From an uncultured Lachnospiraceae bacterium (lineage in GTDB: Bacteria; Bacillota; Clostridia; Lachnospirales; Lachnospiraceae), in NCBI GenBank assembly GCA_947576945.1, contig CANPTH010000011.1, positions 1 to 64,000 on the forward strand: a stretch of 64,000 bases of DNA, in the 5' to 3' direction. The position numbers were made by a program, and so were the translations under genes. The notes beneath the pieces are model-generated. The model had not been told where the DNA came from and did not search any database. It was given only the letters and a program-made list of their open reading frames with translations. Below are positions 5,120-33,228 of the stretch, piece after piece. Numbering within the stretch: the stretch's first letter is position 1; each line of letters starts with the position of its first letter.

Positions 5120-6362
5120 TTATTCAAAACAAATTCCTGACAAAATGAAATCAATCCCCAAATTCCTTTGATCTGGTGTACCCATTAAGTCGCAGGGCCG
5201 CCATATATAAGATGTTTTTATACACAAATCCAATACTGAATCCTGTATCAATTCAGAATTAACTGAAATTTCCCATGTTCCATAAATATCACATATATTT
5301 TGCTTTAGTACTTCGCAATCTTTTAGATATATGATCACTTCATATACTTTGTCAAGCCCAAGTACTTCCTGCGGCAACCTATACGGAATCAGCAACTTTT
5401 CTGCATCTTCAGTTACCAGCAGCCTTATCTTACTCTCCGTAGCAGAAGTCCAAACATGTTTTACATTTATATCATCCTCTTCTTTATGAAAACCGCTTAT
5501 CAATTCGTACATTTGATAATTCAATACTCCCCAGTTATCCTTTTGCACTGCAAGGCAATATTTTGCAGGGTGGTTCGCCACAAACCGCAGGCCTAATCTC
5601 AAGGGATTATATAGCATTTCTGATATTGCAGGTTCAAAAAACATCCCTTGGGTTACATCGTCTCTAACAAAAAAAGCATTGCACCCATTTAGATTTGTAC
5701 CTACTAATGCATATCCCTTTTTTCTCCCCATTTCTTCAAGCGCTTTTAAAGATGCTCCATGCCAATCACTTCCATCCCAAACATGGTTCCGATCATATGC
5801 CTGCTTCCAAAACAGATCCGGCGGAAACTTCCCATTATATTCTATAACGACGACCCGCGGAAGGACATCAGAAATTGCTTCCCAAACATAAATATCATTC
5901 CCATCAATATCTATAGATAATAAATCAACTCCAAAATCCCCCCCCCGTATATTTTGCAAGAAGCTTATTAATATTTTCTCTTGTCACAAAAGAATTCATA
6001 ATCTGCAACTGGCCATTATCAATGACGGGGCGAAATTTCATACGAATTTCTTTACAATACTCATCTGAGCCTTCAATCCATAGTCCGTTCCAGCCGTAAA
6101 ATAACAGTAAATGGCTATTGCATTCTAAACCGTTTTGAACACCAAATTCTATAAAAGTCTTGTTTGTTGCCCCAATTCTCCTGAATATCTCATGAATTAT
6201 CCCATCCTCATCATTCTGAGAATAAACCTTATAGCCATAGGCTTCCAAGGACTTTGGATCCTGCATCCTCTCACGTGTCAACTCATCCCAGCAAGAGCCA
6301 CCTTCTATAACTCCTGAAAACCTCAAATTATCTGCCGTTTTCTTCCTCATAATGTCATACAT
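5120..6362 (-). CDS. Methyltransferase-like (FkbM-type fold) protein, frame OFF at a G9 tract; probably phase-variable
   Basis: Two overlapping frames together encode one protein. The N-terminal part runs from 6362 (ATG with GGAGG five bases upstream) into a nine-G tract at 5946-5938 and stops shortly after (GGGFWS). The C-terminal part opens with GGDFGVDLLSIDIDGNDIYV, the expected continuation. With 8 or 11 G the frames join as a 413-residue protein; with the 9 G seen here translation ends after about 145 residues. The N-terminal half has FIEFGVQNGLECNSHLLL and a following acidic segment that look like a SAM-binding Rossmann fold; the C-terminal half has VVVIEYNGKFPPDLF. I infer a sugar or polysaccharide methyltransferase-like role; the substrate is unknown. 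It lies between the MBOAT gene and its SGNH partner. The junction sequence is observed; reversible switching is inferred. Confidence 0.75.
5938..5946 (-). repeat. Poly-G tract, G9, out of frame
   Basis: Nine C on the plus strand, nine G in the coding strand, at about codon 139 of the methyltransferase-like gene. Loss of one G restores the reading frame. Confidence 0.9.
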
Positions 6363-6491
6363 TCCTCCATTCAAATTACTTATCGCAAAAACAATCTGCG
6401 TGAGATCTCCTGTCAGTAAGCGTAATATCATGTCCCATGATTATGTAAAATACCTTTATACTCCTGATTCACATTATAGATATCAACAATA

Positions 6492-8561
6492 TCAATATAC
6501 GGAAACACTCGTGTCAAATACTGCCGTATCAACAACCATTTTCAGCACCGTATCATATACTACAATGTTGATTCCTCTTGTATTAGGAGAATATTCCACA
6601 CCATCTATAACAATAGACGAACGACACTCTTCAGAATCCATTCCACCACTTTTAAGAGTGTGGCCTATATATCGTAATGAAATTGGTGTTTTATCATGAT
6701 TCTTCATCTCGTATACGATCTGCCCGCTATTTACCACCGCCAGATAAGAATCCCGGTATCCTAAGTCAGACAGCGCATATAACCCATAATCAGCCAGCCG
6801 CGCCCTTGCTTCCGTGTCCAATGCTCCTGCCGCTTCATCCATAACTGACATATAGATAATATAATCCTCTTTCCAGTATGAAGAAAAATAAGAAAATATT
6901 CCATTTTCTGCCATATTATGTTTCAAGTATTCAGCTATTCTTTGGTTTTCACATCTTCGATTATATAAGTAAAGTTTTTGAAGTTCTGCTGATAATTCGA
7001 AATAGTCCTTTCCCAGTTTCGTCTCATTATCTAATGCATTGGCCAAATTTTCCCCATCTCTTACACTCGATAAATAGGTATCGAAATAAGTCGTATCTAT
7101 AACTTTTTCTAAGCTATTATCATATATTACAATGTTTAACCCCCTTTGATCTTTTGCGTATTCAATTCCATCAATTAAGCAGGATGCGTTATTAGCTAAT
7201 CCCCCACTTTCCAAAGCATAGTCAGTTCCTCCAACTAATTCTCCGCTATGGGAAAGTACTGTCGGCTCTGTAACAACATCCACTGCACTCTTTCTTCGTT
7301 CATGGCTAACTTTCCCTTGATCGACCACTGCAAGATAGGAATCCCGAAAGTCTAATGCAGCAAGTTCTGCTAATCCCATCACAGCAAAACGCTCTCTTTG
7401 TTCCTGTGTAAGTCTACTTGCCGCATCATCCTTTGCCATCACGAAAATCGTATAGTTTTTATTTTGCATCGCTACAGATAAATAATCACTCGGATCAGTC
7501 ATCTCCTTAATTTGTATCACGTCACTCACCAATGCATGATATTTATCCAACTGCTCAGCCATATAAGAATACTTTTCATTCTCACGTACATCCATAAGTT
7601 GATAATTGGTTTTCAGATAGTCCCCGATATAAGCCGTTATTTTTTTTGCCCCGTAATAATTTGCATGGTACGCATCTGTAGAATCAACTGCCCAATTATA
7701 TCCAATATCGCCTAATAACGGTTCAAAGGAAAAATCCAACAACTCCAGTCCATGCGCTTCCGCCAAGTCCTTTACAGTATTATGCTCTGAAGGCTGCCAT
7801 GAGGCTAACCTGACTAACACTAAGTTCAGTTCATTCGTATCGCAAAAATCAACTATTCTTTCAAAATAGTCTATTCCCTCGGCAATTAACTCTTGCTTCT
7901 CATCACTATTTACATAAAAAGACGGTATTAGCAACGGTTCATTTGAATCCAGATATCTTTCATTCGTAAAGTTATAGCCTCTTACACAGACATTTGGTAA
8001 ATATCTTGCTATTTGAAAATCTATATCATTCATAGACTTCCATCTGTCATGATACGCATACAACGGCAAAAGATTGGCTATTGTTTCTCTGAAATTATTG
8101 GAATAATCTTTGACTGCATTGTATTTGACCGAAGAAAACTCCATTCCTTCTATTGCTTTCCGATAAAATGCAGAATCCTGAATATATCTCAATGCTGATA
8201 CATCAAGAACGACTGTCGATAATGTTTCTGCATGTTTTCTATACGCTTCTTTTATCCAATAATAGGATGCCATCAGCGGTTGTTGCTCTGTCCCAAAATT
8301 ATAGGCACAAATACCATAATTCTCATACAATTCCATTGGTGATATAGAATTTACCACGCAGCTTGTTCCAAAAAAGGCCACTTCTATCGTATCTTTCGGT
8401 TCTTCATAAAACCCACGCACTGTATCATAATTATTCCAATCCATCCATACCGGTTGGGCTAAAAAATTAAATCCCATAAATAATAGAACTAAAATAAATA
8501 GCCATAGAAATGCTTTGACGATTTCTCGGAAATTGACTCTCATAACCGCATCCCCTATCAT
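6492..8561 (-). CDS. SGNH-family acyltransferase-like protein with two C-terminal ILEI/FAM3-like domains
   Basis: A 689-residue protein with one N-terminal membrane anchor (residues about 17-33). The next 300 residues look like the SGNH partner proteins of MBOAT systems (DltD, AlgJ/AlgX). The nucleophile block is FFGTSCV (near 63-69) and the Asp/His block is DAYHANYYGAKK (near 296-307). The last 330 residues contain two copies of a module with the hallmarks of the ILEI (FAM3/PANDER, also POMGNT1 stem) domain. These are RGLNIVIYD...VIDTTYFDTY and RGINIVVYD...VVDTAVFDTS, each paired with a DEAA-type strand and an FRDSYLAVV or YRDSYLAVV segment. Such domains bind carbohydrate in POMGNT1. The start overlaps the wzx stop (ATGA); an alternative ATG at 8543 has a better AGGGGA site. 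It probably delivers the acyl group from the MBOAT to extracellular glycan. Confidence 0.8.
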   Translation of the reverse strand: MIGDAVMRVNFREIVKAFLWLFILVLLFMGFNFLAQPVWMDWNNYDTVRGFYEEPKDTIEVAFFGTSCVVNSISPMELYENYGICAYNFGTEQQPLMASYYWIKEAYRKHAETLSTVVLDVSALRYIQDSAFYRKAIEGMEFSSVKYNAVKDYSNNFRETIANLLPLYAYHDRWKSMNDIDFQIARYLPNVCVRGYNFTNERYLDSNEPLLIPSFYVNSDEKQELIAEGIDYFERIVDFCDTNELNLVLVRLASWQPSEHNTVKDLAEAHGLELLDFSFEPLLGDIGYNWAVDSTDAYHANYYGAKKITAYIGDYLKTNYQLMDVRENEKYSYMAEQLDKYHALVSDVIQIKEMTDPSDYLSVAMQNKNYTIFVMAKDDAASRLTQEQRERFAVMGLAELAALDFRDSYLAVVDQGKVSHERRKSAVDVVTEPTVLSHSGELVGGTDYALESGGLANNASCLIDGIEYAKDQRGLNIVIYDNSLEKVIDTTYFDTYLSSVRDGENLANALDNETKLGKDYFELSAELQKLYLYNRRCENQRIAEYLKHNMAENGIFSYFSSYWKEDYIIYMSVMDEAAGALDTEARARLADYGLYALSDLGYRDSYLAVVNSGQIVYEMKNHDKTPISLRYIGHTLKSGGMDSEECRSSIVIDGVEYSPNTRGINIVVYDTVLKMVVDTAVFDTSVSVY

Positions 8562-9796
8562 ATTCTTACATTACGATTCAAATATATGGCCAGAACTACC
8601 ATTGTTAAAATCATCGCTATTGCCATTATAAAAGGAATGCCACCTATTTCGACTTTCATCACTAATATCCATGCAATCGCCATGATCCCTGTAACAGCAG
8701 TTGCCAACGCAAAAACTTTCGTTAAATCAGTCGCCAAAATATACTGATAGAACACCCAAAATGCTCCCAATACGACCGAAAAGAAAGTACACGGTAAAAT
8801 ATATTCTGTTGCTCCTCTATACGACTCTCCATATAAAAATGGAATAATCCATCCTCCTAAAATATAGAAACAACCCCCATACAAAACAGACATACCTAAG
8901 GTAATAGTCTCAGCCAGTATCAATAATGTATTGCACTTTCTTTTCTCATCTTTCGCGGTTGCCATTTTAGGCAAAATTATTGTCGCAATCGGTGTCGATA
9001 CTAAAAAAACGCTGATTTTAGATAATGCAATCGTTACAGAATATGCTCCCACTTCTGTCTCACTACAATACAGGTTTCCGAGCAAAAGATCTCCATTGTT
9101 CATATAAAGCGAAAGAATCAGATTTAATAAAAGTATCCAAACATATTGCTTTAAAATACTCTTATTAACCTGAGTCTTATTCTCATTTAATGAAATGCGA
9201 ATTGATCGGCTCAATTTTCTCAGCATCAAAATAACACACACAGTTTCAGCTATAACAAATCCGATCATCGTGGCAACGAAACCAACTCCAAAATTACCCA
9301 AAATTACACTTATTATTAATTTTATAAGATACAAAGAAATCCCAATTTTTCCAAGTAATTCAAAATCCTGCTCTCCTTGTGCAAAGCCAATAGATATTGT
9401 ATAAATGTTATTTAAAAAAATCAAAGTAGAAAATAAAACTATTTCTACCACTCCAGTAAAATGAAAATACTGCATCAATTTATCAATACATACAACCAGC
9501 AAACCTAATTCGATAATATTAATAAACCCAAAAACTTTCATTATACTTGTTATGTCTCTTTTTCTATTCTCAGAATTGCCTGCTAATAAAGTACACGCAA
9601 TCACCTGTAAAGGTATCACAAAAGTAGCGGCATTGGTGACAAACGCCTGAAGAGTTGTCGCAATTCCATAATCCCCAACTGAAAATATTCTTCCCCACGC
9701 TATTAAAGTTATAAAGTTTAATACCGATGCAATAATAGACATATACGTATATCTTACAGAGGGGATTCTTAATAACTCCTTTATTTTTTCTATCAT
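8558..9796 (-). CDS. wzx: Wzx-like polysaccharide flippase (MATE/MVF-type)
   Basis: About 412 residues with 12 or so predicted membrane segments and the profile of the oligosaccharide flippase family. It has an N-terminal RIPSVRYTYMSIIASVLNF stretch followed by repeated hydrophobic helices with small polar loops, and it ends in a short tail. It would move lipid-linked oligosaccharide units or single lipid-linked sugars across the membrane. ATG 9796 is preferred, with AAGGAG 9 bases upstream; a TTG two codons earlier is too close. It sits in a cluster that also carries an ABC exporter (wzm/wzt), so it may serve a second polysaccharide or side-chain precursors. No clear Wzy polymerase was recognised. 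A degraded copy of its 5' end lies at 10856-10972. Confidence 0.85.
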   Translation of the reverse strand: MIEKIKELLRIPSVRYTYMSIIASVLNFITLIAWGRIFSVGDYGIATTLQAFVTNAATFVIPLQVIACTLLAGNSENRKRDITSIMKVFGFINIIELGLLVVCIDKLMQYFHFTGVVEIVLFSTLIFLNNIYTISIGFAQGEQDFELLGKIGISLYLIKLIISVILGNFGVGFVATMIGFVIAETVCVILMLRKLSRSIRISLNENKTQVNKSILKQYVWILLLNLILSLYMNNGDLLLGNLYCSETEVGAYSVTIALSKISVFLVSTPIATIILPKMATAKDEKRKCNTLLILAETITLGMSVLYGGCFYILGGWIIPFLYGESYRGATEYILPCTFFSVVLGAFWVFYQYILATDLTKVFALATAVTGIMAIAWILVMKVEIGGIPFIMAIAMILTMVVLAIYLNRNVRI

Positions 9797-9822
9797 AAAC
9801 AAACAATTTCTCCTTGCACAGA

Positions 9823-10842
9823 CTATTTCCCATAGCTGGCGTTTTTACACTCTCTTCCTGTAATCTTCATAATTCCCAAAATAACTATCTGTACACAAAC
9901 ATAATATAAATAAATAAAATGTAGAAGAAAGCTTACATCTTTATATATAAAGGACAGTCTAATACTATCTAACAACGGCAGTGGAAAAAATAAAGCATAA
10001 AAGCAAAATAGTATTTTCCTTTTCTTCATCCTGTCAGACATTTTTTCTTTTGATGAAAAACCACTTTCTTCTTTATGAAATAGATTATTAATGACTCTAA
10101 ATTTAAGTTTAGATAAATACACTTTAAAAGATGAACTGCAGTTGTGTAATATATCATCTCCTCTTATACATCCACAAAGCTTTGTATCTGATATGATCTG
10201 ATCATATGCCTTGCAGGTAAATTCTATTGAAGCATAAATATCCGGATATTTTTCTTTCATATAATCAAGCGAAAGCGTTGAAGTAGCGCTATCCGCCAAC
10301 GGATATATGTCCCCCGGTTCAAATTTCATAATCGTATACTTACCTTCTTCACTGATAACATGATTACGATATGTATGATATTTATCAACCTTAGTCCGAT
10401 AAATAAAATATGAAAAAGGGTCACCCAATATATTCATATACTCTGCTGCAATACCACAAATTCCTTTTCGCCCCCCCCCAGAATATTTATTAGGAATCAA
10501 CACCTTTAATTCCGGATGACTTTTTAAAAATTCCATTTTATCCTGCAATTGTGTACAATAAGAAAACTCTTCATCAGAATCCATCCGCACAACATAATGT
10601 CCCGTGGCCTGACTTGTCCCTATCGCTTTTGCATACTCCGGTAGGCGCCGTGGATTACTATATATGATAGCTCCATATCTCTGTGCAATTTCCCGTGTTC
10701 TGTCCGTAGAACCGCCATCCACTACAAGAATCTCCACTTCATCTTGATTCACGGATTGTCTCCGAATTGACTGCAATGTGTATTCAAGCGTATGTTCCGA
10801 ATTATATGTTGCAATAATGATTGAAAAGAAAGGTTGTCCCAT
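9823..10842 (-). CDS. Glycosyltransferase family 2, copy A of a tandem pair, with in-frame G9 tract
   Basis: A GT-A fold enzyme: it opens with QPFFSIIIATYNSEHTLEY, has VVDGGSTDRTREIA for nucleotide binding and a DxD-like RMDSDEEF near residue 93. The C-terminal 70 residues hold one or two hydrophobic segments that suggest membrane association. A nine-G tract at about codon 122 encodes GGG within NKYSGGGRKG; the gene is in frame here, but one extra G leads to a stop some 20 codons later. The protein is almost identical to the next gene upstream (10974-11993), with differences only near the ends. The start at 10842 is the second ATG (MKMGQ), with AAGGAG 7 bases before it. The donor and acceptor sugars cannot be read from the sequence. 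Confidence 0.85.
   Translation of the reverse strand: MGQPFFSIIIATYNSEHTLEYTLQSIRRQSVNQDEVEILVVDGGSTDRTREIAQRYGAIIYSNPRRLPEYAKAIGTSQATGHYVVRMDSDEEFSYCTQLQDKMEFLKSHPELKVLIPNKYSGGGRKGICGIAAEYMNILGDPFSYFIYRTKVDKYHTYRNHVISEEGKYTIMKFEPGDIYPLADSATSTLSLDYMKEKYPDIYASIEFTCKAYDQIISDTKLCGCIRGDDILHNCSSSFKVYLSKLKFRVINNLFHKEESGFSSKEKMSDRMKKRKILFCFYALFFPLPLLDSIRLSFIYKDVSFLLHFIYLYYVCVQIVILGIMKITGRECKNASYGK
10471..10479 (-). repeat. Poly-G tract, G9, in frame (GT2 copy A)
   Basis: Nine consecutive C on the plus strand, encoding glycines in the GT2 copy A. Confidence 0.9.
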
Positions 10843-10855
10843 TTTCATACTCCTT

Positions 10856-10972
10856 CTAAAGTCATAAAATTTAATACCGATACGTAATAGACAAATATGT
10901 ATGTCTTACATCAAGAAATTTTATTAACTTCTTTATTTTTCTATCATAAGCAAACAACTTCTCCTTACGTAC
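10856..10972 (-). pseudogene. Degenerate 5' fragment of the wzx gene between the two GT2 copies
   Basis: This stretch aligns base for base, at roughly three quarters identity by eye, with the start region of wzx (about 9715-9830). The match includes the AAGGAG site, the ATGATAGAAAA start and the downstream TAATACCGAT string (plus strand). One A is missing, so the frame reads MIEK and then stops. It is what remains of wzx from a tandem duplication of the unit (GT2 plus wzx 5' end). It has no coding function, although it still supplies spacer sequence before the next ribosome-binding site. Confidence 0.8.
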
Positions 10973-10973
10973 G

Positions 10974-11993
10974 CTATTTCCCATAGCTGGCGTTTTTACA
11001 TTCTCTTCCTGTAACCTTCATAATTCCCAAAATAACTATCTGTACACAAACATAATATAAATAAATAAAATGTAGAAGAAAGCTTACATCTTTATATATA
11101 AAGGACAGTCTAATACTATCTAACAACGGCAGTGGAAAAAATAAAGCATAAAAGCAAAATAGTATTTTCCTTTTCTTCATCCTGTCAGACATTTTTTCTT
11201 TTGATGAAAAACCACTTTCTTCTTTATGAAATAGATTATTAATGACTCTAAATTTAAGTTTAGATAAATACACTTTAAAAGATGAACTGCAGTTGTGTAA
11301 TATATCATCTCCTCTTATACATCCACAAAGCTTTGTATCTGATATGATCTGATCATATGCCTTGCAGGTAAATTCTATTGAAGCATAAATATCCGGATAT
11401 TTTTCTTTCATATAATCAAGCGAAAGCGTTGAAGTAGCGCTATCCGCCAACGGATATATGTCCCCCGGTTCAAATTTCATAATCGTATACTTACCTTCTT
11501 CACTGATAACATGATTACGATATGTATGATATTTATCAACCTTAGTCCGATAAATAAAATATGAAAAAGGGTCACCCAATATATTCATATACTCTGCTGC
11601 AATACCACAAATTCCTTTTCGCCCCCCCCCAGAATATTTATTAGGAATCAACACCTTTAATTCCGGATGACTTTTTAAAAATTCCATTTTATCCTGCAAT
11701 TGTGTACAATAAGAAAACTCTTCATCAGAATCCATCCGCACAACATAATGTCCCGTGGCCTGACTTGTCCCTATCGCTTTTGCATACTCCGGTAGGCGCC
11801 GTGGATTACTATATATGATAGCTCCATATCTCTGTGCAATTTCCCGTGTTCTGTCCGTAGAACCGCCATCCACTACAAGAATCTCCACTTCATCTTGATT
11901 CACGGATTGTCTCCGAATTGACTGCAATGTGTATTCAAGTGTACGTTCCGAATTATATGTCGCAATAATGATCGAAAAAAAAGGTTGTATCAT
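10974..11993 (-). CDS. Glycosyltransferase family 2, copy B of a tandem pair, with in-frame G9 tract
   Basis: This is the upstream twin of the gene at 9823-10842, 1151 bp away. The encoded proteins differ only near the ends: G versus I at residue 4, H versus R near 18, and I versus V near the C-terminus. The central 900 or more bases look identical, synonymous sites included. The same GT-A motifs and the same nine-G tract at about codon 122 are present, so this copy too is currently ON. The start at 11993 is the second ATG, preceded by GAGGAT. Two switchable copies of one enzyme would allow dosage or redundancy effects; alternatively the pair is simply a recent duplication. Confidence 0.85.
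   Translation of the reverse strand: MIQPFFSIIIATYNSERTLEYTLQSIRRQSVNQDEVEILVVDGGSTDRTREIAQRYGAIIYSNPRRLPEYAKAIGTSQATGHYVVRMDSDEEFSYCTQLQDKMEFLKSHPELKVLIPNKYSGGGRKGICGIAAEYMNILGDPFSYFIYRTKVDKYHTYRNHVISEEGKYTIMKFEPGDIYPLADSATSTLSLDYMKEKYPDIYASIEFTCKAYDQIISDTKLCGCIRGDDILHNCSSSFKVYLSKLKFRVINNLFHKEESGFSSKEKMSDRMKKRKILFCFYALFFPLPLLDSIRLSFIYKDVSFLLHFIYLYYVCVQIVILGIMKVTGRECKNASYGK
11622..11630 (-). repeat. Poly-G tract, G9, in frame (GT2 copy B)
   Basis: Nine consecutive C on the plus strand at the position equivalent to the tract in copy A. Confidence 0.9.
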
Positions 11994-12009
11994 TTTCATA
12001 TCCTCTTCA

Positions 12010-14277
12010 CTAGATTAAAATATTTGTCATCATTTTATTTACATCAACTTCTAAATATCTTCTTGTGAATTCATAAGAACTTTCTCGTATATGCATATAT
12101 AAGTCACTATCTTCAAGTGTAAGCTTCATCTGCTCATATACTCCCAAAGCTGACTTTTCCCTGCAAACATAACCAGCTTTTCCATTATCTACAGCATCTA
12201 TCAACCCCGCAGAGTTAAAGACAATACTTGGTGTTCCTACATAAGCAGCCTCAGAAATTGGTATTCCCCAGCCTTCTCTGTTTGATGGGAAAACCAGGGC
12301 TTTAGCTCTGCTTAAAGATTTTAATTTCTCCTCTTCTGACACATATCCTGCAAATATTATATCTGCATCTCCATATTCTTTATCTCTTTGATCCGCATCA
12401 TATTCTTTAGGTTCAAAAAACACTAACTGATACTTTTCACAAATTGGCAATAGCCTATTCTGGATATATTCTTTGTCTTTTTTTCCAAAAATAATCAATT
12501 GTACTTTAACATACTCTCTTTTTAAAAGACCAAGTGCCTCAACTGCAAAATCTATACCTTTATACTTCGCATACCTACCTACATATACATATTGAGGTAT
12601 AACCGATTTATCCAAAAAGCATTTAGGATCCCACGGATCTATTTTCATTATAATCGGTATAATAAACACTTTATCTCCATGAAATCCAACATTAATCAAA
12701 TCATTCTTTGTAGACTCAGATTCTGTAATTGTAATATCATTCTTATTTAACCTTAGCAAGGTGTTTTCTAACATTTTCCCTATCTTATTAAAAGGAAACG
12801 TCATATTAATATCCCAAATATCCCGTGTTAATTGGTATATAAGAAATATTCTCTTACATTTTTTTACCCAAAAAGGTGTAAAAAATCGATGCGTATTGCA
12901 TTGATCAATCACAAAATCAAAATCGGCTCTATGCTTTTTATAATATCTAATTGCAAACGGGATGACAGTATATATATTGCCGTGACGTATATACATAATA
13001 TCATCAATGCACTCCCTTTCCTGAAGATTTTCATACAAAGGAGATATATGTGTAATAGAATATAAATTAGAATCTAAGCTTTTAAACATCGCATGCGTGT
13101 TTACCTCAGCTCCTCCTGCACCCGGCGACCTAATATCTCTCCAAGACAATGCTAAGATTCTGATTTTTGCATGACTTGACCTTTTATCAGCGTATCTACG
13201 ATAATACTGGAAGGATGTCCCTTCTGCCCCCCCACCGTATTTATGCATGCCAACCGAGTCCACAAATGTTCTGATATCTGAAGCTTTTCCATTAAACAAT
13301 CTTGCATTTTTCCCAATTCCCTCATACCGTTCCGTTGTTTTTCGCATAATCAAACAAGGCTTATTCATATAAAACAGTTCTTCCTGATTGCTTCCACCAT
13401 CCGTAATCACAAAAGACGCATTCTGCAATAATTTCATAAAATCAAAATAATCTACTCTTGGCTGCAAGATAATATTACTATTTGATCTTAAATTATCCAT
13501 TAAGCCAAACTTTACGAATGCGTTCTTTGTAATCTCATGAAGAATAATAACACATTTATACTTTTTTGCCGCCTCTATAATCTCTTTTGTAACATCACAT
13601 ACAAAAGCCCGATTTGCCAGATTCTCCTGTCTGTGCATTACAAATACAAAATATGTTTGATTCAGTATTTCTCCAATATTACTTTTTACCGGAATCGCTT
13701 CGGAAAACCTGAGACTATCCAGCAACGTATTCTGCTGAGTATTTATTACTTTTCCTTTTACATTCTTTAGATTCTGTACGGATGTATCTCCTGGTGCAAA
13801 ATGCAGTCTTGCCATTTTGCTTGTGATCAATCTATCAATCTCTTCCGGAAATGGATTCAACAGATTATGTGATCTGAGCCCTGCTTCCACATGGCATATC
13901 TGCATACCAAATTTTTTCCCCAGCATCGCTCCCATCATAGTCGATACCGTATCACCATGCACAATTAAATAAGCTTCTCTGAGATTTGTTTCTCCAAATT
14001 GATTCTTGATTAAATTGGCTGCCTTTCTTTTGGTTCTCCAAAACCAATTCAATAGCCCCGCTGCGCTCTTAACTATATCGCATTCCTGGGACAATTCTAA
14101 AATACTTCCATTTAAATTGATATATTCCAATATCCTGCTCTTCTTCAGATCATTCTGCCCCGATGCAATTATATGACACAAGATGCCTCGCTCTTGGCAC
14201 TCCATGATCACTGGAAATATCTTGATCAATTCTGCCTCTGTTCCTATAAAAAAATATATTGGTTTTACAATTTCCAT
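12010..14277 (-). CDS. UDP-GlcNAc 2-epimerase-like domain fused to a GT4 glycosyltransferase
   Basis: A 755-residue two-domain protein. Residues about 1-345 resemble WecB/MnaA non-hydrolysing UDP-GlcNAc 2-epimerase: HVEAGLRSHNLLNPFPEEID, MHRQENL and DGGSNQEE stand in the expected order. Residues about 372-755 are a GT-B enzyme of family GT4, with GAGGAEVNTHAMF near its start, YVGRYAKYKGIDFAVEAL, and a donor-site EGWGIPISEAA segment. The linker HKYGGGAEG is encoded by a seven-G tract at 13227-13233. A gain or loss of one G there would end the protein shortly after the epimerase domain. The epimerase could supply UDP-ManNAc for the attached transferase; this coupling is inferred. The two parts are separate genes in most organisms, so the fusion is unusual. 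The opening residues (FFIGTEAELIKIFPVI) fit the family's N-terminal strand. Confidence 0.82.
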   Translation of the reverse strand: MEIVKPIYFFIGTEAELIKIFPVIMECQERGILCHIIASGQNDLKKSRILEYINLNGSILELSQECDIVKSAAGLLNWFWRTKRKAANLIKNQFGETNLREAYLIVHGDTVSTMMGAMLGKKFGMQICHVEAGLRSHNLLNPFPEEIDRLITSKMARLHFAPGDTSVQNLKNVKGKVINTQQNTLLDSLRFSEAIPVKSNIGEILNQTYFVFVMHRQENLANRAFVCDVTKEIIEAAKKYKCVIILHEITKNAFVKFGLMDNLRSNSNIILQPRVDYFDFMKLLQNASFVITDGGSNQEELFYMNKPCLIMRKTTERYEGIGKNARLFNGKASDIRTFVDSVGMHKYGGGAEGTSFQYYRRYADKRSSHAKIRILALSWRDIRSPGAGGAEVNTHAMFKSLDSNLYSITHISPLYENLQERECIDDIMYIRHGNIYTVIPFAIRYYKKHRADFDFVIDQCNTHRFFTPFWVKKCKRIFLIYQLTRDIWDINMTFPFNKIGKMLENTLLRLNKNDITITESESTKNDLINVGFHGDKVFIIPIIMKIDPWDPKCFLDKSVIPQYVYVGRYAKYKGIDFAVEALGLLKREYVKVQLIIFGKKDKEYIQNRLLPICEKYQLVFFEPKEYDADQRDKEYGDADIIFAGYVSEEEKLKSLSRAKALVFPSNREGWGIPISEAAYVGTPSIVFNSAGLIDAVDNGKAGYVCREKSALGVYEQMKLTLEDSDLYMHIRESSYEFTRRYLEVDVNKMMTNILI
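13227..13233 (-). repeat. Short poly-G tract, G7, at the domain junction of the epimerase-GT4 fusion
   Basis: Seven G in the coding strand at codons about 349-351. It is shorter than the nine-G tracts nearby and so likely to be more stable. Confidence 0.7.
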
Positions 14278-14349
14278 CTCGTTATGTTTTCCTTTAAAAT
14301 ATGATTTAATAATGAGCTATTGCATTTCTGCTTGCCCCTGATAGCGAAG

Positions 14350-15237
14350 TTATATCGCATATAATACTGTTTCTGAAATTTTTTGTGCATGATGTCTTAT
14401 ATAAAACTTATATCCTAAATCCCAATTTGCAATTAATTCTATGAGTCTTAACATATCTTCATCGCTATGATAAATACATATAGCTAATTTAGGTCTATTC
14501 TTCTTAATTGTATTTTGCGCACCTATTAATGCCTCATACTCACTCCCTTCTATATCCATTTTAATAAAGGTCGCATCCCTACATTCCTCTACATTATCAA
14601 TCGCTCTTGCCCTCATCCTAATTATCTTTTTTTCATTACTTTCAGTTTTGTTACATACACTACTGGAACTCCCCTCTCCCATACTAAAAGATACTTCTGT
14701 ATCAGAAGACCAGCATGCTGAAGGAATTACAAAAATACGTTCCCCCTTCCGCCTAATCGCTGATACATTTTTTTCATCCGGTTCAAAAGCTACTATTTTT
14801 TTATACTTCTTATGTGTAAACCTTAAAAAACTTTCAATAGTATCGCCGTTATATGCCCCGCAATCTATAAATACTTCCTTAGGTGTTAATTGCACTATAT
14901 CCTGAGGGAAATACTGATCTCGTCTGTTATACTGCGGCCTCATCCGCCAATCATGTGTTACTCTATATTCTATACATTGTCTAAATACATATTTTGAAGC
15001 ATTATCCTCTAACATCTTTTCTATTCGTTGGATTCTTTCTTCATTTTCAGCAAAAAATTTTTCTGCTCTTTTCATATCATCAGTAGGATTTTTTCTATCA
15101 CATTCATATGATAAATGATTCCATATTTTCACTGCACCCGAGGCATACAACAAATTAACCAGCTTCCTTCCTCCCCCCCCCTTCTGCAATTTTATAATAA
15201 TATTCCAAATTTTTTCATCTACTTTTTCGATTTTCAT
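14350..15237 (-). CDS. FkbM-family methyltransferase with an in-frame G9 tract near its start
   Basis: A 295-residue protein. The FkbM methyltransferase domain spans about residues 120-290: VFIDCGAYNGDTIESFLRF is the SAM-binding motif I, VAFEPDEKN follows, and FIKMDIEGSEYEALIGA is the characteristic motif near residue 230. The start is placed at ATG 15237 because GGCGGAGA precedes it by about 6 bases; an upstream ATG at 15276 lacks a site. Codons about 19-22 contain a nine-G tract coding glycines. The gene is in frame here, but with 8 or 10 G it would stop within about 20 codons of the tract. The likely role is O-methylation of a sugar in the surface polysaccharide; the position methylated is unknown. 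Confidence 0.88.
   Translation of the reverse strand: MKIEKVDEKIWNIIIKLQKGGGGRKLVNLLYASGAVKIWNHLSYECDRKNPTDDMKRAEKFFAENEERIQRIEKMLEDNASKYVFRQCIEYRVTHDWRMRPQYNRRDQYFPQDIVQLTPKEVFIDCGAYNGDTIESFLRFTHKKYKKIVAFEPDEKNVSAIRRKGERIFVIPSACWSSDTEVSFSMGEGSSSSVCNKTESNEKKIIRMRARAIDNVEECRDATFIKMDIEGSEYEALIGAQNTIKKNRPKLAICIYHSDEDMLRLIELIANWDLGYKFYIRHHAQKISETVLYAI
15173..15181 (-). repeat. Poly-G tract, G9, in frame (FkbM methyltransferase)
   Basis: Nine C on the plus strand, close to the start of the methyltransferase gene, where any slip abolishes nearly the whole product. Confidence 0.9.
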
Positions 15238-15342
15238 TTCAATCTCCGCCTTTCTACAAATAACCCTGAATTCCATTTTTTCACAATTTCTTCTAAATAA
15301 TCACTTCGACGAATACAACTAATCACATTTAATATAATACCG

Positions 15343-16313
15343 TTAATACAAACTTTTTAAAATACCTATTTTTGAAGATAGCTTTATAAAAACACCTGAA
15401 ATAATTACAGTAACAGTCAGAACCACTACAAATCGTACCACCGAGTTTCCTACCTTATCCTTCATTATATTTATCACAAAAGGATGCACTAGCCAAATTA
15501 AAGTACTTAATTTTCTCACCGTCAACGCTGTTTTTGTCTCAACGCTTACATTATATGCAAAAACAAATATCAATGCTGATAAGGGAATTGTTGAAATCAA
15601 AACATTTATATCCGCCCCTAAATTGTATATTTTTGCAATATATATTTCAAAAGCTTCAAATATAAAACATATAACAATTATAGTACATATTTTCAATTTA
15701 TAATTAGTATAATTTCTTACCCTTTTGAGTGACTCTTTATGTTCATTAAAATAATTACCTAAGCTTATATAAAAGCATCCAAACAGAATACCATCTCTGG
15801 TGGTATAATCAAAAATATGATAATGATATTTCAAAATAGTTCTCTGCAAAAAGCAGGCTATTGGATTTACATTGGAGTATGTATCTCCAAAGAGAGCGAA
15901 TATATACATAAGCATTGTCAATATACATACCCAAAAAGGAGATATAACTTTATTTAACATAACGCATACAGTTATACTTAGTATCATGGACGGAAAATAC
16001 CAAAATGCAGGAATAATACCATCAAACATTACTTTCTTAATAAACCATGAATTTATTACCTGTTTCCCATAAATGGCATAAAACATTGTCCAAACCAAAT
16101 ACATTACTAATATTCTAACAAGCCATCCCCCCCCCGCATAAAGAACCCATTACAAATAAAAAAGAAGGGAATACACCATCTAAATGCTATATTAATAACC
16201 CACATATCAGCAATACTGCTATATGTCCACAAAATACCTGAATGAGACATCAGCACCAGTACAGCAGCGATTACTTTAACTACATCAACTGCGCTTAGTT
16301 TATCTCTTCTCAT
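15343..16313 (-). CDS. Acyltransferase-3 family membrane protein (OafA-like), frame OFF at a G9 tract; probably phase-variable
   Basis: The N-terminal frame (from 16313) encodes the typical start of an acyltransferase-3 protein: AVDVVKVIAAVLVLMSHSG with the conserved histidine, then IPFFFICNGFFM. It enters a nine-G tract and stops (GGDGLLEY). The remaining membrane segments are in another frame from about 16125 to 15343. With 10 or 7 G the two join through RGGGWLVRILVMYLVW as a 323-residue protein with about ten membrane helices, the expected size and topology. At 9 G the product is a truncated peptide of about 68 residues. Such enzymes O-acetylate or O-acylate sugars of O-antigens, teichoic acids or lipid-linked precursors. 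A site AAGGA precedes the ATG. The frameshift is observed; reversible switching is inferred. Confidence 0.8.
16127..16135 (-). repeat. Poly-G tract, G9, out of frame (acyltransferase-3)
   Basis: Nine C on the plus strand at about codon 60 of the acyltransferase. One added G restores the frame. Confidence 0.9.
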
Positions 16314-21515: not shown

Positions 21516-22574
21516 TTATTGATCTTCTGCTTTCCTGATCGCCGCATCTCTCTTCGCGAGTTTACGGTCATGTTCTGCCATAATTCTGACTAATTCTTCA
21601 TAAGAAGTCTTCTGAGGATTCCAGCCAAGCACAGTCCGCGCTTTTGTCGGATCTCCCAGCAGATTATCTACATCAGTAGGCCTGAACCATGCCGGATTAA
21701 CACAAACCAGCATTTTCCCAGTTGTTTTATCATACCCCTTTTCATTCACGCCCTCGCCTTCCCAGCGAATCTCTATGCCATTTGCCATGAATGCTTTTTC
21801 TGTAAAGTCTCTTACAGTATGCTGTTTTCCAGTCGCAATTACAAAATCTTCTGGTTCTCTATGCTGCATAATTAGCCACATACACTCCACGTAATCTTTT
21901 GCATAACCCCAGTCACGCAATGAATCCATATTGCCCAGTTCCAGATGATCCTGTAAGCCTTCAGCAATTCGACCAGCAGCCAGCGTAATTTTTCTTGTTA
22001 CGAAATTTTCACCGCGTCGCTCTGATTCATGATTAAACAGAATACCATTCACTGCAAACATCCCATAAGCATCTCGGTACTCTTTAGTAATCCAAAAGCC
22101 ATATTGCTTCGCAACAGCATACGGACTATATGGATGAAACGGTGTTGTCTCCTTCTGTGGTATTTCTTCTACCTTTCCATACAATTCAGATGTAGAAGCC
22201 TGATAAAATTTTGTTTTTTTCTCCATACCGAGAATACGCACTGCTTCCAACAATCGCAACACCCCCAACGCGTCGACATCGCCAGAATATTCCGGAGCAT
22301 CAAAAGACACCTGCACATGTGACTGTGCTGCCAGATTATAGATTTCATCCGGTTTTACCTCTGCTACAATATTTGTGAGTGATGACATATCGGACAAATC
22401 TCCATCATGCAACGTGATCCTTCCCGCTTCAAGCAAATGATCGATCCGCGATGTATTTGAAATGGATGCACGCCTGACAATTCCATGCACCTCGTATCCT
22501 TTCTCCAGCAAAAACTCCGCCAGATATGATCCATCCTGTCCTGTTATCCCTGTAATAAGAACTCTTCTCATCAT
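21516..22574 (-). CDS. gmd: GDP-mannose 4,6-dehydratase
   Basis: About 352 residues, the normal length. The NADP-binding motif [20 protein letters not shown] is at the N-terminus. STSELYGK and [10 protein letters not shown] hold the catalytic Thr/Glu and Tyr-Lys pairs. [17 protein letters not shown] is the Gmd-specific signature near residue 190. The reaction converts GDP-D-mannose to GDP-4-keto-6-deoxy-D-mannose. The start is taken at ATG 22574, following AAGGA; an in-frame GTG at 22601 precedes that site. It overlaps nothing and is 20 bp from rmd, implying co-translation. GDP-mannose itself must come from manA/manB/manC genes elsewhere. Confidence 0.93.
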
Positions 22575-22605
22575 TCCACTATCCTTTCTATTTTTGTCCA
22601 CAATC

Positions 22606-31107: not shown

Positions 31108-32451
31108 TCATCCTAACTCCCACTCATGCTCGATTCTGGATAATCCTACGTCATCCTTTGTCGTAAAAAACTCTACTCTCTTAGCTTCCCGATAATAATC
31201 AATCGGCAGTCCCATACCTGACTCAATTGCAAAGTCTAATGTATACTGTCCAGGCATCAAATTGACATTCTTCAGTACAAGACAGACCACCCCATCTTTT
31301 TCAAGGCTGAATTCATCTAACTTGTCTATACGAGTATTAGAACCATATACCTGTACCCCATCAGTCCTGAAAACCCCAATTCCGATCACCGCGTCTTCAA
31401 CCTTTTGCTTTACATGGTAATGAAGCTTTACTGTCACATTCTTACCGGTCTCAAAGAGAGTACTGTCCACACCATTCTCATCAAGCAGTTCAATCTCCTG
31501 CAAGCGAGCCATACCATTCCCCCAACGCTTCTTATTTTTCTTAATTGCCTCCTCAGAAGATATGGTTGTTAAATCATCTTCACAATCAGCTTTATCTTCA
31601 TTTACAGACGTATCCCTTGGCAAAGCGTTTTCGCCTGATACGTCTGTTTTCAACGCTTCTTTTTCTCTCTTCTTTTTCTGCCGTATTGCCTCATGCTGCG
31701 CATTTTCCAGCCGCTTCGTTCCCATATAGTCAAGATATATTGGATGAACCTCCCTGGGGGAACCTTCTGCCATGATTTTTCCATCGTGAATCCAAATACT
31801 CCGTTCACACACCTGTTCTATTTGGCCCAGCGAATGTGACACAATCACAATGGTCGTTCCTTCTGCCTTAATCTCTTTCAATCGATTAAAACATTTTGAT
31901 TGAAAATTAGCATCACCAACTGCAAGTATTTCATCAATCAGCAATATATCCGCATCAACATTGATCGCCACGGAAAAGGCAAGCCTCATATACATTCCTG
32001 ATGAATATGTTCTTACCGGGTTGTCAATATAATGTTCCAGCTCTGAAAAAGCAATAATATCATCAATTCTCTTGGCAATTTCATCTCTGGTAAGTCCAAA
32101 AATTGCCGCATTGATATAAATATTTTCCCTACCGCTCATATCCGGATGAAATCCTGCACCCAACTCAAGAAGACTGGACACTCTCCCTCTCATCCTTATG
32201 CTACCACTATCCGGATAAATAATTTTCGTTAAAAGTTTTAATGTAGTACTTTTTCCACAGCCGTTTTGCCCGATAAGACCAATAGCCTCACCTTTGCCGA
32301 CTGTAAAACTGATTCCCTTCAGAACCTCATGTATTTCATATTTTCTCCTGTTCGCAAATAAAACCATCTCTTTAAGCATATAGCCTTTGTCTTTATATAC
32401 CTTAAAGCTCTTTCTGACATCATTTACTTCTATTACATTTTCCGGTTTCAT
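31108..32451 (-). CDS. wzt: Polysaccharide ABC exporter ATPase with C-terminal carbohydrate-binding domain (Wzt)
   Basis: 447 residues. The ATPase domain (1-245) shows Walker A GLIGQNGCGKSTTLKLL near 58-74, signature YSSGMYMRLAFSVA and Walker B ILLIDEILAVGD. After a charged linker (about 250-300), the last 140 residues form a beta-rich domain (ELLDENGVDSTLFETGKNVT, then GVFRTDGVQVYGSNTR) typical of Wzt_C. In E. coli O9a this domain recognises the modified terminal sugar before export. The presence of a long Wzt together with a candidate methyltransferase terminator fits that pathway. The start codon immediately follows the wzm stop (TAAATG). Confidence 0.93.
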   Translation of the reverse strand: MKPENVIEVNDVRKSFKVYKDKGYMLKEMVLFANRRKYEIHEVLKGISFTVGKGEAIGLIGQNGCGKSTTLKLLTKIIYPDSGSIRMRGRVSSLLELGAGFHPDMSGRENIYINAAIFGLTRDEIAKRIDDIIAFSELEHYIDNPVRTYSSGMYMRLAFSVAINVDADILLIDEILAVGDANFQSKCFNRLKEIKAEGTTIVIVSHSLGQIEQVCERSIWIHDGKIMAEGSPREVHPIYLDYMGTKRLENAQHEAIRQKKKREKEALKTDVSGENALPRDTSVNEDKADCEDDLTTISSEEAIKKNKKRWGNGMARLQEIELLDENGVDSTLFETGKNVTVKLHYHVKQKVEDAVIGIGVFRTDGVQVYGSNTRIDKLDEFSLEKDGVVCLVLKNVNLMPGQYTLDFAIESGMGLPIDYYREAKRVEFFTTKDDVGLSRIEHEWELG

Positions 32452-33228
32452 TTACATTCCCTCCGAGAACCCTCTTTTCAACCGTCCGAAGGCCAACACA
32501 CCCACCGTCATGAAAAACACACCCATAAACGTTGCTAATCCCAATGTTGATATATCAGGTATCCGCTGATAATACATGATGTCCCTGAAGCACTCTATAA
32601 CAGAAGTCATGGGATTAAAGCGAAACACAGTACGAAGTTCTTCCGGTACTACATCCAGTCCATACATAACCGGCGTTAAGAACTGCCAGGCCATGGTCAA
32701 TATTTCCATAATATACTGTAAATCCCTAAAATATACATCAAGCGCTGACATCAGCATTGTAATCCCCAGCGCTAATAAATATTCTATAAAAATAACAAGT
32801 GGAAGATATAAGATCGCTACCAGATTAATCCCATGTCCGGAAAGAATCAGTACCGCAAACACAATTAACAACGAAAGCAACATATTTACCAATAGATACG
32901 TCACATGGGCAATTGGCAATATCTCCCTGGGAAAATAAATTTTATTCACCATGTTTCTTTGATCCCATATGCATCCTGTACCCGATGCAACTGAGCCACT
33001 AAAAAACACCCATGGAACAAGTGCAGTAAACAGAAACAGATAATATTTGTCATACCCCGATTTCATAATTACACTGAATACCAGCGTATACACTCCAAGC
33101 TGAAGCAATGGAATCAGAAACGTCCATAAGAAACCAAGTACTGATCCTTTATATCTTCCTCTTAGGCTCTTTCTGACTAAGCTAAAAAGCATCTCTCTAT
33201 AATTGTACAATTCTTTTATCAGATTCAT
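32452..33228 (-). CDS. wzm: Polysaccharide ABC exporter permease (Wzm)
   Basis: 258 residues with six hydrophobic helices of the ABC-2 type. LRGRYKGSVLGFLWTFLIPL near residue 25 is the typical Wzm/TagG entry motif. YLLALGITMLMSALDVYFRD and FNPMTSVIECFRDIMYY follow in the canonical positions. With Wzt it exports completed polymer attached to a polyprenyl carrier. It is the first large gene of the leftward operon; only a 38-codon frame precedes it. TagG (teichoic acid export) is a related alternative, but the long Wzt and the gmd/rmd genes favour polysaccharide export. Confidence 0.92.
   Translation of the reverse strand: MNLIKELYNYREMLFSLVRKSLRGRYKGSVLGFLWTFLIPLLQLGVYTLVFSVIMKSGYDKYYLFLFTALVPWVFFSGSVASGTGCIWDQRNMVNKIYFPREILPIAHVTYLLVNMLLSLLIVFAVLILSGHGINLVAILYLPLVIFIEYLLALGITMLMSALDVYFRDLQYIMEILTMAWQFLTPVMYGLDVVPEELRTVFRFNPMTSVIECFRDIMYYQRIPDISTLGLATFMGVFFMTVGVLAFGRLKRGFSEGM

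Follow-up and report, generated by a model that had tools for sequence, protein, structure and literature searches.

Our analysis indicates that a 64,000-nucleotide (nt) stretch of DNA from an uncultured Lachnospiraceae bacterium (contig CANPTH010000011.1; below, the window means this whole stretch) holds a cluster of poly-G tracts of a kind that recurs elsewhere in the genome and across the genus, and that these tracts probably act as phase-variable switches. The best explanation, to which we assign a probability of roughly 0.85, is slipped-strand phase variation working at several levels across the genus, as suggested by a genome-wide excess of G runs, a length peak at nine, placement where length should matter, a mixture of ON and OFF genes, and length differences in 7 of 17 groups of tracts compared between species. 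Through slipped-strand mispairing in replication, runs of about nine G would grow or shrink one base at a time, and a length change of a single base would switch a gene reversibly, which would make these tracts contingency loci. We infer from the assemblies that replication slippage is the likely cause, that switching would be reversible within a clone, and that transcription, translation and the cell surface would be affected. Poly-G on/off switching is well known from Campylobacter and Neisseria. The mechanism belongs to a familiar type that had not been expected in such bacteria. Among the matches listed from the open-licence literature, none reported poly-G phase variation for Clostridia or Lachnospiraceae.

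The tracts of the window and the genes that carry them are as follows (coordinates are window positions; the coding strand is the minus strand throughout):

5938-5946, minus strand: G9 tract, OFF in the assembly, with a frame change at the tract
5120..6431, minus strand: gene split by the 5938 tract into an upstream piece, 5925-6431 (168 amino acids, aa), and a downstream piece, 5120-5959 (279 aa)
10471-10479, minus strand: G9 tract in GT2 glycosyltransferase copy 1, ON, frame open through the tract
9823..10848, minus strand: GT2 glycosyltransferase copy 1 (341 aa; PF00535)
11622-11630, minus strand: G9 tract in GT2 glycosyltransferase copy 2, ON, frame open through the tract
10974..11999, minus strand: GT2 glycosyltransferase copy 2, in tandem with copy 1, protein 99% identical to copy 1
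13227-13233, minus strand: G7 run, in frame, between a UDP-GlcNAc 2-epimerase part and a glycosyltransferase part
12010..14277, minus strand: single 755-aa frame with, by domain match, an Epimerase_2 domain followed by a glycosyltransferase group 1 domain
15173-15181, minus strand: G9 tract near the 5' end of the FkbM methyltransferase gene, ON
14350..15276, minus strand: FkbM-family methyltransferase (308 aa; PF05050; TIGR01444)
16127-16135, minus strand: G9 tract in the acyltransferase-3 gene, OFF in the assembly, with a frame change at the tract
15343..16313, minus strand: acyltransferase-3 gene split by the 16127 tract into an upstream piece, 16107-16313, and a downstream piece, 15343-16104

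These five G9 tracts and one G7 run, which read as C9 and C7 on the plus strand, are the only G or C runs of at least 7 nt in the window. The first-pass annotation had given the same six positions and had seen no other run of eight or more in the 64 kb; a run scan returned every coordinate and no further run even of seven. From the window's own run statistics we would expect 0.004-0.06 C9 runs in 64 kb, where five are seen, and at most 0.0004 G9 runs on the plus strand. The earlier call of two OFF and three ON genes was also borne out, with the 5938 and 16127 genes changing frame at the tract and the 10471, 11622 and 15173 genes staying open. Its placing of all tracts in polysaccharide-modifying genes stands for four of the five G9 tracts (two GT2 genes, FkbM and acyltransferase-3) but not for the 5120-6431 gene, neither piece of which has a family match (Pfam at E<=1, NCBIfam at E<=0.1). 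The upstream piece of the acyltransferase-3 gene is the start of PF01757, above the Pfam cut-off, and the downstream piece is the membrane part, which resembles the NF033132 membrane domain far below cut-off. The core D-rhamnose and export genes are tract-free, as had been said: neither gmd (21516-22601) nor the Wzt/ABC-2 export genes (31108-33228) contain a G or C run of at least 7. Length changes in the window would toggle the frames of the two GT2 copies, the FkbM methyltransferase, the acyltransferase and one unassigned gene; the figure of up to 32 states for five tracts holds as arithmetic, but the two GT2 genes among the five are nearly identical tandem copies, and switching may have polar effects.

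Where the first-pass annotation described a single cluster of tracts, the cluster itself is real, but the genome, a draft assembly (133 contigs, 4,365,778 bases in all), contains 39 G runs of at least nine (31 G9, 5 G10, 2 G11 and 1 G12). Only three runs are of exactly G8 and seven of exactly G7, and a length peak at nine is not what a smooth chance decay would give. Such an excess of repeat tracts over chance is one mark of simple-sequence-repeat phase variation. Five runs in 10.2 kb, as in the window, have a Poisson probability of about 5e-8 per stretch if the 39 runs were evenly spread, and a second dense cluster is found at locus L025 on contig C49 (five in about 9.3 kb; three-digit numbers after G and L are our handles for genomes and loci, and C numbers those for contigs), where positions 6227-15561 hold G9-G11 tracts, GT2 genes and an acyltransferase-3 gene split at its tract. 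L025 is a glycan-type locus, and several of its proteins have no Pfam match. A peak at nine is also seen in the Campylobacter phasome, for which the available part of PMC6321876 gives 52% of poly-G tracts as 9G and 30% as 10G, with dozens of runs per genome, mostly in genes, and mixed ON and OFF states; unlike in that phasome, the tracts described here belong to another lineage, in which MutS1 is present, and lie in promoter spacers and at ribosome-binding positions too.

Twenty tracts of the genome lie inside sense reading frames, 12 of them ON and 8 OFF. These states were called by a mechanical rule from the longest open frames on either side of the tract, so that an apparent OFF gene may in some cases be a pair of adjacent genes; the count includes the second GT2 copy and leaves out L009, at a gene junction, and L033, at a ribosome-binding position. 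The genes concerned include a GT2/methyltransferase gene (L021), an FrhB-type gene with polysaccharide pyruvyl transferase and a DegT aminotransferase gene (both L013), genes for a solute-binding protein (L019, OFF) and a DUF3502 lipoprotein that is probably of solute-binding type (L030, ON), and genes for a secreted protein (L032), a histidine kinase (L031) and a protein that, judged from its translation, ends in an AraC-like helix-turn-helix (L034). Ordinary gene decay, in which OFF genes would be pseudogenes broken by chance at a G run, is in keeping with eight OFF frames in one genome, but in these genes the frame changes at the tract itself and long open frames continue beyond it (up to 1823 bases). 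Moreover, in a gene that is OFF in two species, the 179 codons downstream of the tract show 4, 2 and 20 differences at first, second and third codon positions, a predominance of third-position changes in keeping with a gene that is at times ON (a selection comparison at L013 spans 26 codons only). Constraint persists in the one gene pair that offers enough sequence. Decay is the least credible of the alternatives, and we give it almost no weight.

Other tracts are positioned where they could affect transcription or translation start. Four sit between a TTGAC-type -35 and a -10 element with spacers of 17-19 (L015, L017 and twice at L020); the L015 tract is upstream of a solute-binding protein gene, and the two L020 tracts are upstream of a 2899-aa frame and a frame of at least 1294 aa, both with signal-peptide-like starts. 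Further tracts lie 3-9 bases before the start codons of genes for flagellin (L033), an XRE-like regulator named from its translated sequence (L023) and a DUF975 protein (L026), and the L009 tract is at a kinase/response-regulator gene junction. Tract positions are such that a change of length would affect the reading frame, the spacing of a promoter or the start of translation, with some tracts unclassed; at L016 and L022 the coding strand is the C-rich strand. Elsewhere in the genome and genus, tract length would change -35/-10 spacing, and tracts may also act at the ribosome-binding position and the kinase/regulator junction. The slipped-strand layout that the first-pass annotation had proposed for surface glycan genes is the best-supported reading of these tracts, but it is not confined to glycan decoration, as tracts occur also with regulators, solute-binding proteins, flagellin and giant secreted proteins. 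Transcriptional slippage, with DNA length fixed, RNA polymerase slipping on the run and OFF genes yielding some full-length product, would need no change in the genome. G9 runs are plausible slippage sites, and one OFF gene remains under constraint. Slippage of this kind is described at poly(A) tracts of Buchnera in the accessible part of PMC2831843. It leaves unexplained, however, the tracts between -35 and -10, because that stretch is not transcribed, as well as the length differences between species, and we see in it a faint possibility.

The promoter placement extends to a family of giant secreted proteins. A search with the N-terminal 240 aa of the 2899-aa protein gave 23 matches in 13 of the 77 genus genomes, which correspond to 21 genes (L086 repeats L074, and L089 repeats L072). 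The query protein itself (L020 4183-12882) has a signal-peptide-like start and no confident Pfam domain (best Big_2, E 0.022). A G run is present upstream of 20 of the 21 genes, G7 in one (L077) and G9-G13 in nineteen; L075 is the sole gene with no G run in the upstream stretch examined. In 17 of the 21 the tract lies between -35-like and -10-like elements with spacers of 16-22; 13 of these sites have TTGAC and four a weaker -35, and in two a TG separates the tract from the -10. L079 has a G9 upstream that is not in a promoter-like place, and L081 is masked upstream of its tract. The family thus shows the promoter-spacer feature of the Neisseria type, a homopolymer between -35 and -10, as described for the fetA/porA switches in the part of PMC5320596 available, where transcriptional, translational and C-terminal classes likewise occur in one genome; unlike there, the poly-G is on the sense strand, a whole promoter family carries it, and the effect on expression is predicted. 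The pattern TTGAC-N6-13-G7-TAWWAT, which is blind to spacers above 19, matched 27 times in 18 of the 77 genus genomes (reversed control, 0) and 54 times in 29 of 392 genomes sampled from the order (control, 0). An anti-correlation of flank with tract length, hinted at in this pattern-limited set, was not seen in the giant-protein set and was dropped.

A genus-wide survey of poly-G, first proposed for glycosyltransferase genes and made here over whole genomes, found at least one G9 in 33 of the 36 congeners first searched. Within the order sample, the highest counts for the family are those of our genome (39 runs of at least nine) and of the single congener sampled (33); among the remaining 167 genomes of the family the median is 1 and the maximum 23. 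Some genomes from other families of the order have as many or more (G053, 95; G116, 45), so the trait is not unique to the genus. Other lineages of the order may share it, G053, G116 and further genomes being rich in such runs.

Comparison of tract lengths between related genomes, which had been put forward as a check, supported length change for part of the tracts but offered no partner for those of the window. Between our genome and three close relatives, with partners sought among the relatives' runs of at least eight, 17 orthologous tract groups hold their place across species. Length differs in seven of them: 8/9/9/10 (L023), 9/10/11 (L026), 10/9/9 (L120), G10 versus G9 with flanks 97.8% identical (L009), and 9/10 in each of L013, L020 and L168. 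The L013 case is doubtful, since in the relative an adapter-like contig end lies near the tract. The table behind this comparison has 38 rows for our 39 runs, the two window GT2 tracts with identical flanks being collapsed, and 20 of the 21 runs of relative G009, whose run on C73 was met only at L092. Tract length at conserved places differs between related genomes, at least as assembled. A homopolymer artefact of sequencing or assembly would mean that true lengths differ from the reference and that OFF states are errors. The L150 tract on contig C49 of G009 has, some 75 bases away, a contig end resembling sequencing-adapter sequence, presumably an assembly artefact in a public genome. All assemblies are draft (133 contigs here), and G runs are hard to sequence, as stated in the portion of PMC9187656 consulted. 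On the other hand, a tract can be found at the same place in as many as four species whose genomes were assembled separately and whose flanks have diverged, and tracts recur in 20 of 21 giant-protein genes; an artefact is unlikely to choose such orthologous sites. Exact lengths may be wrong in the assemblies, while artefact as the whole explanation is very improbable. The longest run in the four genomes is a G17 at L179 1507 (G099).

Several findings weigh against slipped-strand switching. The evidence consists of draft assemblies, from which switching within a population is extrapolated, and several tracts of our genome fall outside every placement class. In ten of the 17 groups compared between species the length is nine throughout, in one case across four of four species, and only 13 of the 39 own tracts have a cross-species partner. 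None of the five window tracts has an orthologous tract in the three close relatives, and a search of the genus, made for GT2 among the window's tract genes, gave beyond our two copies only a 39%-identity relative in G031, without a run of six or more. At L030, an orthologue in G099 that is 97% identical lacks the tract; across 30 loci examined it is G9 in two (our genome and G009, in frame in both) and G8 in three more distant ones, and with no OFF state seen it was set aside as a test of frame switching. In G363, from another genus of the family, the promoter matches, ten of ten, combine G7 with a 16-base spacer, a uniformity which suggests a static form of this promoter. In both G363 and G463, of that other genus too, the G7 immediately precedes the -10, which may mark a promoter type that is static. 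A fully static account, in which the tracts are glycine-rich linker codons together with a promoter type that has a fixed G run beside the -10, and nothing switches, draws on the constant groups, on the G363 promoters and on the L030 tract, which lies in a Gly/Ser-rich linker. It fits poorly with the peak at nine and gap at eight, with eight OFF frames, and with lengths that differ in seven groups and range over 7-13 in the giant-protein family. We consider it unlikely, though the least improbable of the alternatives, and it may be true of a subset of tracts.

A further point against slipped-strand switching is mismatch repair. In poly-G instability of the Campylobacter/Helicobacter type, MutS mismatch repair has been lost, whereas MutS1 scored over cut-off in 74 of the 77 genus genomes, our own included. 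Loss of MutS as a cause was rejected on this result (the three genomes without MutS1 are 66-68% complete; the search covered MutS only), and the genus is not of the loss-of-MutS type. If slipped-strand switching operates here, the tracts would need to stay mutable even with MutS present, as tracts in Neisseria do.

Among known systems, the pilus G tract of Bifidobacterium breve is likewise intragenic, OFF by frame and from a Gram-positive gut commensal (available part of PMC9187656); there, slippage was measured by deep sequencing in two pilus clusters, whereas here length is known from assemblies and 39 runs lie in many kinds of gene. The invertible promoters of Clostridioides difficile also switch regulators and surface traits in a clostridium, but, in the part of PMC11868660 drawn on, by site-specific inversion and not by tract length. 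A ribosome-binding-site tract serving as a graded switch was not met in the portions of the literature consulted. That a MutS-retaining genus has a genus-wide poly-G phasome at four levels (the spacing of giant-protein promoters, ribosome-binding sites such as the one of a flagellin, frame switching in genes for glycans, transport and sensing, and the junction of a kinase gene with a regulator gene) seems to us an evenly balanced proposition. If true, presumed commensal Clostridia would change their surface and their uptake of nutrients through a mechanism known chiefly from work on mucosal pathogens, with combinatorial bet-hedging of surface, motility and sugar uptake, and reference genomes would misreport gene content by annotating OFF genes as broken. 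Tract length is legible in accurate long reads, and metagenomes could reveal how the set of ON switches differs from host to host when phages or the immune system exert pressure.

Two other features of the window concern its glycosyltransferase genes. The GT2 genes form a tandem duplication at about 9704-12004, with 97% DNA identity over 1154 bases and proteins 99% identical, so that recombination between the copies could also vary gene dose. The 755-aa frame at 12010-14277 is possibly an in-frame fusion of two genes at the G7 run.

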